The notes under the pieces are model-generated. The model did not search any database, had not been told where the DNA came from, and saw nothing but the letters and a program-made list of their open reading frames with translations. A DNA stretch of 64,000 bases from Rhodovulum kholense (GTDB lineage Bacteria; Pseudomonadota; Alphaproteobacteria; Rhodobacterales; Rhodobacteraceae): positions 124,001 to 188,000 of the forward strand of contig NZ_QAYC01000003.1 in assembly GCF_003053725.1 (NCBI RefSeq), given 5' to 3'. Position 1 is the first letter of the stretch; each line of letters starts with the position of its first letter. The translations under genes and the position numbers were made by a program. Below, one piece after another: positions 35,810 through 38,938 of the stretch.

Positions 35810-36736
35810 CTAAACGCCGAGACAGTAGCGCATCACCGCCTTCTGGGCATGCAGCCGGTTTTCGGCCTCATCGAAGATCACCGAATGCGGCCCGTCCATC
35901 ACCGCATTGGTGGCTTCCTCGTTGCGATGCGCGGGCAGGCAATGCATGAACAGGGCATCGGGCTTCGCCGCTTCCATCAGCCGCTCGTTCACCTGATAGG
36001 GGCGCAGCTGGTTATGCCGCCGCTCGCGCGCCGATTGCGGATCGTGCATCGACACCCAGGTGTCGGTCACCACCAGATCGGCGCCTTCGACAGCCTTCAG
36101 CGGATCGCGCTCGATGGTGACGGTCGCCCCCTTCGCCCGCGCCGCTTCGACGAAGACGGCCTCGGGGTCGAGCGTCGCGGGGCCAGTGAAGGTCAGATCG
36201 AAGCCAAGCTGCCCGGCGGCCTGGATGAACGAGGCGCAGACATTGTTGCCGTCGCCCGACCAGACCACCTTGCGCCCGGCAATCGGCCCGCGATGTTCCT
36301 CGAAGGTCAGCAGGTCCGCCATGATCTGGCAGGGATGGGTGCGGTTCGTGAGCCCGTTGATCACCGGCACGCTGGCATAATCCGCCATCTCCTGCAGCGT
36401 CGCCTCCTCGAAGGTCCGGATCATGATCAGGTCGACATAGCGCGACAGCACCCGCGCGGTGTCGGCGATGGTCTCGCCATGACCCAGCTGCATGTCCTTG
36501 CCGGACAGCACCATGGTCTCTCCGCCCATCTGCCGCACGCCAACATCAAAGCTGATCCGGGTCCGGGTCGAGGGCTTTTCGAAGATCAGCGCCACCATCC
36601 GCCCGTCAAGCGGCCGGTCGTCATCGGGCGCGCCCTTGCTGCGCCCGGCGCGGGCCCGCTTCATCGCCAGGGCCTTGTCGAGGATCCCCCTCAGATCGGC
36701 GGGCTCGGTCGTGGCAATATCGAGAAAATGGGTCAT
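35810..36736 (-). CDS. argF: Ornithine carbamoyltransferase
   Basis: A 308-residue OTCase that joins ornithine and carbamoyl phosphate to citrulline. The carbamoyl-phosphate motif STRTR is in [19 protein letters not shown] in [12 protein letters not shown], and the ornithine loop is [10 protein letters not shown]. Its ATG overlaps the argD stop by 4 bases, so both are one operon, apparently controlled by the leader region upstream of argD. Confidence 0.98.
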
Positions 36737-37923
36737 GCCCGGGCCTCCTTGGCTGCGACGGCCGTGGCGGCCGCATCGAGCCGGGTCACCGCCTCGGCGA
36801 TTTCGTCATCGGTGATGGTCAGCGCCGGCAGCAGCCGCACCACATTGTCAGCCGCGGGCACCGTCAGCAGATGCTGGGCATAGCCCGCCTGCACCAGATC
36901 GGTATTCGCGGCCCGGCATTTCAGCCCCAGCATCAGCCCCGCGCCGCGCACCTCCTCGAAGATGTCGGGATGGCTCGCGACCAGCCCCTCGAGCCGCTGC
37001 CGGAACAGCCCGGCCTTGCGGTTCACCTCGTCGAGGAAGGCGGGCTCGGCGACGATGTCGAGCACGGCCTTGCCGACAGCACAGGCCAGCGGGTTGCCGC
37101 CATAGGTCGAGCCATGGGTGCCGACCGTCATGCCCGCCGCGGCGGCCTCGGTGGCCAGCACCGCCCCCAGAGGAAAGCCGCCGCCGATCCCCTTGGCGAT
37201 CATCATGATATCGGGTGCCGCGCCCGACCATTCATGGGCGAACAGCTTGCCGGTCCGGCCCATCCCGCATTGCACCTCGTCATAGATCAGCAGCGCGCCG
37301 GTCTCGTCGCAGAGATCGCGCAGGCCCTTGAGGCAGGCATCGGGCAGGGGCCGGATGCCGCCCTCGCCCTGGACGGGCTCGACCAGAATGGCCGCGACGG
37401 TGTCGTCGATGGCGTTCTGCAGCACCGAGCCATGGGCGCCGAAGGGCAGGTGGATGAAGCCCGGCAGAAGCGGCCCGAACCCCTTGGTCATCTTCTCGGA
37501 CCCCACCGCCGCGATGGCGGCCGAGGACCGGCCGTGGAAGGCGCCCGAGAAGGTGACGATGTTCACCCGGTCGGGCTGGCCTTTGTCGTACCAGTATTTC
37601 CGCGCCATCTTGACGGCGAGTTCGCAGGCCTCGGTCCCCGAATTGGTAAAGAACACCGTGTCGGCGAAGGTCTTCTCGACCAGCGCGTCGGCCAGCGCCT
37701 CCTGCTCGGGGATGTGGTAGAGGTTCGACAGATGCCAGATCCGGTTGGCCTGGGCGGTCAGCGCCGCGACCAGCGCGGGATGGGCATGGCCGAGCGCGTT
37801 GACCGCGATCCCGGCGCCGAGATCCAGGTATCGCGTGCCGTCGGTCGCGACAAGCCAGGAGCCCTCGCCGCTCTCGAAGCTGAGCGGCGCGCGGTTATAG
37901 GTTGGCAGGACGGACGGGATCAT
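36733..37923 (-). CDS. argD: Acetylornithine / succinyldiaminopimelate aminotransferase
   Basis: A 396-residue class III PLP aminotransferase. The PLP Lys lies in [17 protein letters not shown], preceded by [20 protein letters not shown]. It makes N-acetylornithine in arginine synthesis and probably serves in lysine synthesis too. The ATG at 37923 follows GAAGGA; directly before that lies an intrinsic terminator and, further up, an Arg-rich leader ORF. argF follows with a 4-base overlap. Confidence 0.97.
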
Positions 37924-37939
37924 CTGGGAAATCCTTCGG

Positions 37940-37963
37940 AAAAAGAGGCCCTATGGGTGCCTC
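37940..37963 (-). terminator. Terminator in the argD leader (candidate attenuator)
   Basis: On the minus strand GAGGC-ACCCATAGG-GCCTC followed by TTTTTCC (37963-37940), 16 bases before the argD start codon. A terminator in front of the first gene of an operon is expected only for attenuation control. Confidence 0.65.
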
Positions 37964-38007
37964 GGGCGGGACGGGGTGTCAATGTCTTCGGAAATGCGCC
38001 GGGGCGC

Positions 38008-38017
38008 GGGGGGGGGG
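38008..38017 (+). repeat. Ten-base G homopolymer in the argD leader
   Basis: A run of ten G (ten C in the argD transcript) between the leader ORF and the terminator. It is the longest homopolymer I noticed in the window. Confidence 0.85.
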
Positions 38018-38054
38018 AGGTGGTGTCGCGTGGGCGCACGCGCAGGCGGCCGTC

Positions 38055-38105
38055 TCAGAAACGGCGGCGGCGTCGGCGCGCAGGGATATGAACGCAACAG
38101 GTCAT
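38055..38105 (-). CDS. Arginine-rich leader peptide of argDF (candidate)
   Basis: A 16-residue frame, MTCCVHIPARRRRRRF, from ATG 38105 to TGA 38055 with AAAGG upstream. Six Arg codons stand in a row (CGC CGA CGC CGC CGC CGT). It sits 131 bases before argD, with a terminator in between. By analogy with trp and his leaders, ribosome stalling on Arg codons when charged tRNA-Arg is low would favour read-through into argDF. Chance Arg runs occur in GC-rich DNA, so the call rests on position, Shine-Dalgarno and terminator together. Confidence 0.6.
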   Translation of the reverse strand: MTCCVHIPARRRRRRF

Positions 38106-38179
38106 GGGCTGCGCCTTTAGCGGGAAAACCGGTCTCTGTCCAGATGCGCCGTTGCGGCACAGAGGGCCTCGCGCGCCGG

Positions 38180-38938
38180 TCAGGCCCGGGCGTCCGCCTC
38201 AGGGCCAAGCGCCCAGGCGAAGGCCTGGCGCAGCCGCGCCGCGACATCGGTTTCGATCGGTGCGCCATGGGCCATGATCACCCGGTCCGGCTCCCAGCTC
38301 ATGGCCTCGCGCAGGACGGCCGCGGCTGCGGCCCTGTCGGCCCAGGTCAGCCGGGCGTCGCGCGGGGTGCCGCCGGGGCTGCGGATGCCGCCGATCCAGG
38401 TGGCAATCTTCATCAACGGACCCAGCCGGGCGGGCTCGAACGCCTCGATCAGGTCGGTCAGGATCAGCGTGCGCGACGGACGGTGAAAGAAGATCGCCTC
38501 TTTCAGGAAGGGATGCCCCGGCACCAGACGCTGACGGATCATGCCTCGCCAGGCCTCGGGCGCGCGGGGTCCAAGCGGCGCGTGGTCCGGAAAGACAAGC
38601 CCATGCCGGGCGGCGCGTTCGGCCGCCCCGGGCGCGGCATGGACCGCGGCCTCGGGAAAGCGGGCGGCCCAGGCGGGCAGAAAGGCGTAGTGCAGCGCGT
38701 TCGGGGCCACCAGATGCGCGACCGGCCCCAGCGCCTCGACCTGGGCGATCAGGTCTTCGTCGGGCCTGATCGGCGAATGCAGCCAGAGCCCGCCCGAGGG
38801 CAGACGCACCACGCACATCCGGGTGGGAAAGGGCATGCCGTAGAAGCTGATCGCCGGGCCGTCGACGACCCACAGCTCGCGCCCCAGCGGCTTTGGCACC
38901 GACAGCGGAGGATAAAGCCCGTCGCCGCGTCCTGCCAT
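38180..38938 (-). CDS. DUF4336 protein
   Basis: A 252-residue DUF4336 protein with a degenerate metallo-beta-lactamase-like layout (GGLWLHSPIRPDEDLIAQVEALGPVAHLVAPNALHY). The metal-binding HxHxDH motif is not intact. The function is unknown, though the family is common in phototrophs and proteobacteria. It follows the small exported protein gene by 4 bases and is upstream of argD on the same strand, separated by the leader region. Confidence 0.8.
   Translation of the reverse strand: MAGRGDGLYPPLSVPKPLGRELWVVDGPAISFYGMPFPTRMCVVRLPSGGLWLHSPIRPDEDLIAQVEALGPVAHLVAPNALHYAFLPAWAARFPEAAVHAAPGAAERAARHGLVFPDHAPLGPRAPEAWRGMIRQRLVPGHPFLKEAIFFHRPSRTLILTDLIEAFEPARLGPLMKIATWIGGIRSPGGTPRDARLTWADRAAAAAVLREAMSWEPDRVIMAHGAPIETDVAARLRQAFAWALGPEADARA

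Follow-up and report, generated by a model that had tools for sequence, protein, structure and literature searches.

A probable arginine-sensing leader upstream of argD-argF in Rhodobacteraceae

How do the Rhodobacteraceae, an abundant marine group, sense arginine? The N-terminal domain of ArgR (PF01316, the single domain searched) is matched in 0 of 61 Rhodobacteraceae genomes and in 9 of 14 control genomes, and ArgR is described in PMC5343134 as conserved in many gammaproteobacterial groups and absent from the other classes studied there. A conserved arginine-codon leader would supply the missing sensor, and a candidate is found on the minus strand of the window, i.e., the whole stretch of 64,000 nucleotides of Rhodovulum kholense DNA analysed here.

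The genes concerned are argD (36733-37923), a class-III aminotransferase (PF00202) whose nearest named homolog is that of Rhodovulum visakhapatnamense (96% identity, among the best 80 of 521 named records), and argF (35810-36736), of the ornithine carbamoyltransferase type (PF00185/PF02729). Both were assigned by gene reading and domain match, and they overlap in a shared ATGA, as stated in the initial annotation. Before argD-argF, and about 75 nt past the end (38180) of the neighbouring DUF4336 gene (PF14234), lies an Arg-rich leader ORF (MTCCVHIPARRRRRRF; 16 codons, ATG at 38105, TGA ending at 38055), probably leaderless, with six successive Arg codons, CGC CGA CGC CGC CGC CGT (38078-38061). 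ORF and run agree with what had initially been annotated. The encoded peptide carries Cys-Cys at positions 3-4, which is absent from the other leaders listed.

Conservation of the leader ORF and its arginine codons

Set 1 consisted of 125 argD upstream regions, i.e., 16 loci of the genus (including the window's own), 80 named records (the best 80 of 521) and 29 family genomes (of 287 with a match, the best 29 not yet included), and set 2 was a second sample of 39 family genomes. An ATG-initiated small ORF (6-40 aa, with RRR) located 260-40 nt upstream of argD is present in 98 of 123 set 1 regions (two genus loci, unparsed at that stage, were left out), as opposed to a mean of 3.5 and a maximum of 7 regions in 20 dinucleotide shuffles. 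A leader with at least two successive Arg codons can be identified in 121 of the 125 set 1 loci, nine of them placed by hand (L010, L011, L048, L049, L087, L099, L115, L118 and L121) and with L031, L099, L112 and L117 among the weaker calls; no leader was assigned in L059, L116, L123 and L125 when the odd loci of this set were inspected by eye. Merging identical leaders leaves 112 unique ones, 94 of which have RRR, and the structure counts given below refer to 111, one being lost where the script saw no P2 site. In set 2, leaders were found by script in 36 of 39 genomes, 0 of them identical to, or with up to five same-length differences from, any set 1 leader; L218 (MVHIRRG, weak) and L209 (a GTG-start version seen by eye) stand outside this count, and in L220 a leader was not found.

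The leader peptides are 9-22 aa long, variable in their N-terminal half and consistent in their Arg run, the end of which lies 0-8 codons from the stop. When CGACGCCGACGC was matched without regard to frame, in 151 of 152 unique regions, mismatches numbered 25 per third-position site versus 12 per first/second-position site, and this excess at third positions suggests that selection acts on codons as well as on bases. Conservation of the frame among Rhodobacteraceae, on which the initial annotation had made its reading depend, is therefore borne out in both sets, and comparison of the sequences shows the 16-codon ORF to be real and beyond chance. A run of pathway-product codons kept in frame within a short leader ORF is one of the features of the attenuator class.

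As to its extent, among 29 argD loci sampled at class level the one belonging to the same family (L133) has a leader, and an Arg-rich ATG or GTG small ORF at the -10 spacing described below is present in 0 of the 28 loci from other families, 10 of which have an Arg-containing small ORF without that spacing. No comparable leader precedes argG in 16 congeners. The exact core CGACGCCGACGCTRA is found in 16 of 80 family genomes, once in each; 12 matches are at argD, and the other four lie inside open frames of 247-747 codons.

The first Arg codon of the leader is CGA in 96 of 112 unique leaders, as opposed to 7.3% of the 1816 Arg codons in argD bodies. CGA, CGC and CGT together account for 418 of 423 run codons in set 1 and 127 of 128 in set 2, versus 69% in argD bodies, and CGG for 4 of 423, versus 27.5% of argD Arg codons. 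Among the 41 tRNAs found in the R. kholense genome, the tRNA-Arg anticodons are ACG, CCG and CCT; none has TCT (for AGA), which this 51-contig assembly may simply lack. tRNA-Arg(ACG) carries inosine and decodes CGU, CGC and CGA, the latter poorly. The codon bias, itself established by comparison, and the tRNA set suggest that the Arg run, including that of the window, samples a single isoacceptor, tRNA-Arg(ICG), although base pairing, rather than decoding, could be part of the cause of the CGA preference.

It is extremely improbable that the ORF has arisen by chance in GC-rich DNA. The opposite strand gives an RRR small ORF in 30 of 123 regions, indicating that GC-rich composition alone yields some Arg-run ORFs, but the excess over shuffled regions, the recurrence in a second sample and the third-position bias all argue against this origin. 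Very unlikely, too, is a functional Arg-rich micro-protein whose position before argD would be incidental. In its favour are the strongly basic character of the peptide and the occurrence of small Arg-rich DUF1127 proteins in alphaproteobacteria; however, it is mainly the Arg run that is kept, while length and sequence vary, and a preference for the codons of one tRNA is a property of decoding or of the RNA, not of the peptide.

Promoter-like sites on both sides of the leader

Upstream of the leader, a -35 element (TGGACA, 38137-38142) and a -10 element (TAAAGG, 38114-38119) can be read in the window and define the P1 site. In the relatives, a TANNNN box ends 6-8 nt upstream of the leader ATG in 104 of 112 unique set 1 leaders and in 34 of 36 set 2 leaders, and the best TTGACA-like -35 element of the 104 lies at a spacing of 17 nt alone in 58, of 18 in 14, of 16 in 8 and of 15 in 4, with ties in the remaining 20. 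Such boxes fit the promoters of Rhodobacter sphaeroides, in which the last T of the -10 element is often missing according to PMC8407463. A Shine-Dalgarno-like 4-mer is present in 12 of 112 unique leaders, as opposed to 110 of 112 for argD itself. This rarity, together with the -10 spacing, suggests that the leader is probably leaderless, its transcript probably beginning at or a few bases from the ATG. The Shine-Dalgarno sequence initially annotated before the ORF is rejected, its AAAGG (38118-38114) being part of the TAAAGG box at a place where the great majority of leaders have their -10 element.

The bases CATAT occur at leader nucleotide 16 or 17 in 37 of 148 unique leaders, and anywhere before the Arg run in 45 of 148, with 3.0 expected from shuffling; the window leader has CATATC at nucleotides 16-21 (38090-38085). 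Since CATAT occurs in two different reading frames, it was kept as bases and not as codons, and it is perhaps a promoter-proximal pause element.

A second site, P2, consists in the window of a -35 element (TTGACA, 37977-37982) and, 17 nt past it, a -10-like element (CACCCA, 37954-37959). TTGAC is found at -90 to -40 of argD in 122 of 125 loci (mean of 12.4 and maximum of 23 in shuffles), and TTGACN-N17/18-CA within 95 nt of argD in 107 of 125 (shuffle mean 1.7) and in 34 of 36 in set 2. At the P2 position, TTGAC is retained in L116, L123, L125 and L220, where no leader was seen, and it is present in 7 of 28 argD loci of other families. The site combines a strictly spaced TTGAC, a CANNNN -10-like box and then a GC-rich region (GGGCTT), also where there is no visible leader. 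We regard P2 as an unusual promoter-like site; a sigma-54 reading of its GGCAC-N5-GGC was considered and dropped, because TTGAC sits at constant spacing.

By comparison, a P1-like site is thus found upstream of the leader in 104 of 112 and a P2-like site between leader and argD in 107 of 125. With P2 downstream of the leader, P1 may be dispensable for argD. A start downstream of the leader ORF had been named initially as evidence against attenuation; a promoter-like site does occur there, as judged from sequence, but beside P1.

P2 also bears on the terminator proposed in the initial annotation, a GAGGC/GCCTC stem (37945-37963) followed by TTTTT (the whole at 37963-37940). The letters are present, but the stem overlaps P2 and is not conserved: within 75 nt upstream of argD, a 5-bp stem with TTTT immediately behind it occurs in 8 of 125 loci, 7 of the 8 being of Rhodovulum type, and the terminator is consequently rejected. 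A terminator scan of 37800-38300, covering loops of up to 8 nt (the proposed stem has a loop of 9), gave 0 sites.

Predicted structure of the leader RNA

In predicted folds of the window, hairpin I (38049-38065; GCCGTTTC-TGA-GACGGC) has the leader stop codon in its loop, the middle hairpin (38027-38042; CGCGTG-CGCC-CACGCG) competes with pairing of the Arg codons, and hairpin II (37996-38007; GCGC-CCCG-GCGC, then ATTTCC) lies just before P2. The best fold predicted for this leader consists of hairpin II and a single closed hairpin that covers the Arg codons (-39.9). Across the relatives, hairpin I, in which the Arg codons pair with bases around and after the stop, has a mean z-score of -0.69 (41 of 111 below -1 and 3 of 111 above 1), and the hairpin II class before P2 a mean of -1.24 (61 of 111 below -1). 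For 79 of 111 leaders, a hairpin of -4 kcal/mol or lower is predicted in the interval from leader stop to P2, the other 32 having a weak one or none; for the window itself, the best hairpin taken by this count is the middle hairpin, not hairpin II. The tails following the best hairpin before P2 are C/T-rich, with T at about a third, and not U-rich, and by eye the lower-GC leaders L194, L202, L207 and L210 are also without U-run tails; L118, where the hairpin is followed by seven T, is an exception. A further attenuator-class feature looked for in these leaders, an intrinsic terminator with a U-tract between leader and argD, was not found as a conserved element.

The stretch from leader stop to P2 is C-rich and G-poor (C 40.8% and G 21.4% in 111 leaders, versus 30.7% and 31.8% upstream of P1). 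The window has a run of about ten C at 38018-38008, between the middle hairpin and hairpin II, and this may be a variable tract, since its length and sequence differ among the close relatives L009, L010 and L011.

Constrained folding compared a ribosome masked on the first Arg codon with one masked at the stop. With the former, the probability of the downstream hairpin was lower in 8 and higher in 20 of the 79 leaders. These predictions therefore support no stall-dependent antiterminator of the classical 2:3 type, the opposite direction being the more frequent one. This runs counter to the initial proposal that a stalled ribosome prevents the terminator. In several Rhodovulum leaders, moreover, the Arg codons pair with the 5' arm of the middle hairpin, which has the wrong sign for a terminator at that place.

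In many leaders a long-range stem, S0, which the initial annotation does not mention, pairs the first leader codons with a segment past the stop, starting 6-30 nt after it in 39 of 47 clear cases. Because the RNAalifold consensus of 16 Rhodovulum leaders was weak (-2.3) and MAFFT did not align the S0 3' arm in 22 leaders, S0 was tested by comparing each leader's own pairing with that of swapped pairs, in which the 5' end comes from another leader. A score of at least 6 is reached by 47 of 111 own pairs, i.e., under half of the leaders, versus 10.7% of swapped pairs, and in set 2 by 14 of 36 versus 12.3%. As the 47 stems were picked for complementarity, their four to five pair types per position are no proof alone; it is the swapped control that establishes S0 at the level of comparison. 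Examples that differ on both sides are GATCAAACG/CGTTTGATC (L107), GATCGAAC/GTTCGATC (L080) and GAACAAAAGC/GCTTTTGTTC (L097), and further ones are GAACACG/CGTGTTC (L060) and GACACCG/CGGTGTC (L072). When the 15 nt upstream of the ATG were used as a control, 8 of 111 fell in the best 10%, versus 29 of 111 for the leader 5' end.

The predicted openness of leader nucleotides 1-12 is 0.72 as long as the S0 3' arm has yet to be made, 0.39 once the leader is complete and 0.56 when the 3' part is foreign (n = 147, paired P = 8e-18, with shared ancestry ignored here as in the P values and percentages throughout the comparison). The S0 arms of the window's leader are shifted: in its predicted fold, TGTTGCG (38099-38093; codons 3-5, the arm lying further 5' in most relatives with S0) pairs with CGCGACA (38030-38024), and openness falls just from 0.54 to 0.48.

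Proposed function, alternatives and known systems

Codon choice, position and the fact that ArgR was not detected point to the sensing of arginine by the leader ribosome as the most likely function, and the Rhodobacteraceae probably sense arginine via the reading speed of this ribosome. We consider it quite probable that the element is a cis-acting arginine-sensing leader for argD-argF, with its own promoter P1, beside a second, arginine-independent promoter P2. Translation, stalling and the direction of the response can be inferred as follows. The P1 RNA would start on the leader ATG or a few bases from it, so that a ribosome would load on the free 5' end once it emerges, and would read an Arg run decoded by tRNA-Arg(ICG) alone, with a strong preference for CGA. 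Under a shortage of charged tRNA-Arg(ICG), this ribosome would pause on the Arg run and keep the downstream leader RNA from folding over the Arg codons, and more of the P1 transcripts would extend into argDF. When arginine is plentiful, it would complete the leader ORF and leave, and in many members the finished leader would close via S0 over the start-codon region, limiting re-initiation. P2, situated between leader and argD, would supply basal enzyme independently of arginine. Candidate output steps are hairpin-dependent termination, Rho-dependent termination, or pausing and RNA stability.

A more specific version is put forward tentatively: throughout the family, a one-shot leaderless leader may stand in for ArgR, its ATG being open until the S0 3' arm is made, so that one pioneer ribosome in many transcripts would sample tRNA-Arg(ICG) via CGA, and the readout, without a trp-type switch, would act on RNA polymerase close to P2 (via Rho, pausing or P2 interference). 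Of the argDF attenuation initially proposed, the comparison supports an Arg-codon leader kept in frame in nearly all sampled members of a family without detected ArgR, and does not support the terminator, the Shine-Dalgarno sequence and the classical switch.

Other arrangements would use the same elements differently. In a classical trp-type attenuator, intrinsic termination would take place at hairpin II or the middle hairpin, and stalling of the ribosome on the Arg codons would release an antiterminator. The short distance from Arg run to stop, hairpin I spanning both, the second hairpin that follows in 79 of 111 leaders and the seven T of L118 are consistent with this scheme, and in the cysS Cys leader of Rhodobacterales the codons are reported to lie in the first of two stems (PMC8632094); however, the C/T-rich tails, including those of the lower-GC leaders, the absent or weak hairpin in 32 leaders and the response to ribosome masking make it rather unlikely. 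Rho-dependent attenuation, in which the C-rich, G-poor stretch past the leader stop would be a Rho loading site exposed according to the position of the leader ribosome, is a fair rival because of this base composition. It would also accommodate the Loktanella/Yoonia-type leaders, which lack a strong hairpin there and have the leader retained, and another form is reported for the Salmonella speF leader with its two Arg codons (PMC6386406). It is nonetheless doubtful, since the footprint of a ribosome on the Arg codons would reach only some 12 nt beyond them, so that most of the C-rich stretch would stay exposed, and since in many leaders part of this stretch is taken up by S0 and the hairpins. 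Finally, the product of P1 might be an independent leader RNA or peptide that acts in trans, as rnTrpL/peTrpL does in Sinorhizobium meliloti, with argDF driven by P2 alone. P2 is about as conserved as the leader (TTGAC in 122 and leader in 121 of 125 loci) and persists in loci without a visible leader, the 5' end of the complete leader is predicted to be less open, and rnTrpL begins with the trpL ATG (PMC7298713), but the leader stands upstream of argD in almost every locus sampled, the peptide varies in its N-terminal half and the Arg codons match the pathway product, so that action in trans is improbable.

In the preferred reading as a cis-acting arginine-sensing leader, the leaderless start, single-isoacceptor codons and start-covering stem would make up a compact system to convert ribosome speed into gene output without an obvious antiterminator. 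No description of an arginine leader before argD in Rhodobacteraceae was recognised among the matches listed in a full-text literature search (titles and abstract starts, few subscription journals; a 2004 survey of proteobacterial attenuators cited in PMC10117765 was outside its scope). uORFC-8-2, a Cys-Cys leader ORF before cysS in the same order, Rhodobacterales, is similar according to PMC8632094 in that it is a short uORF whose tandem codons specify the amino acid concerned and lie in a first stem with a second stem next, and ribosome-mediated attenuation was proposed there. In contrast to the cysteine and cysS of that system, with tandem Cys codons near positions 14-15 and cysS downstream, an Arg run and argD are found here; the argD leader has no U-run past the second stem in most members, and it has a long-range start-codon stem in many members as well as a second promoter-like site. 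The main text of PMC8632094 does not mention argD.

The leaderless trpL attenuator of S. meliloti has a transcript that starts with the ATG of a 14-aa leader ORF, as is predicted for argD, and both ORFs carry pathway-product codons; in PMC7298713, transcription attenuation is described as established for trpL, whereas for the argD leader it is putative. In the orf34-speF leader of Salmonella, as presented in PMC6386406, consecutive Arg codons of the leader ORF sense arginine, as proposed for the argD leader, with a CU-rich RNA and involvement of Rho. This leader differs in controlling ornithine decarboxylase, not arginine synthesis, and in its 34-codon ORF with a Shine-Dalgarno sequence within a leader of about 516 nt (PMC6386406). 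The Rfam speF model gave no match in the window at gathering score or in 37900-38200 at E up to 10, and no Rfam family matched at the leader.

The trp, his and leu attenuators of enterobacteria have a run of end-product codons in a short leader ORF before biosynthetic genes, and so does the argD leader. It differs from them in that neither a conserved U-tract terminator nor a stall-dependent antiterminator was found, in its probably leaderless start and in the second promoter-like site between leader and gene. As these two defining output features, U-tract terminator and antiterminator, were tested and not observed, the argD leader is not filed as a proven member of the attenuator class; it is in its sensing part that it resembles an amino-acid attenuator.
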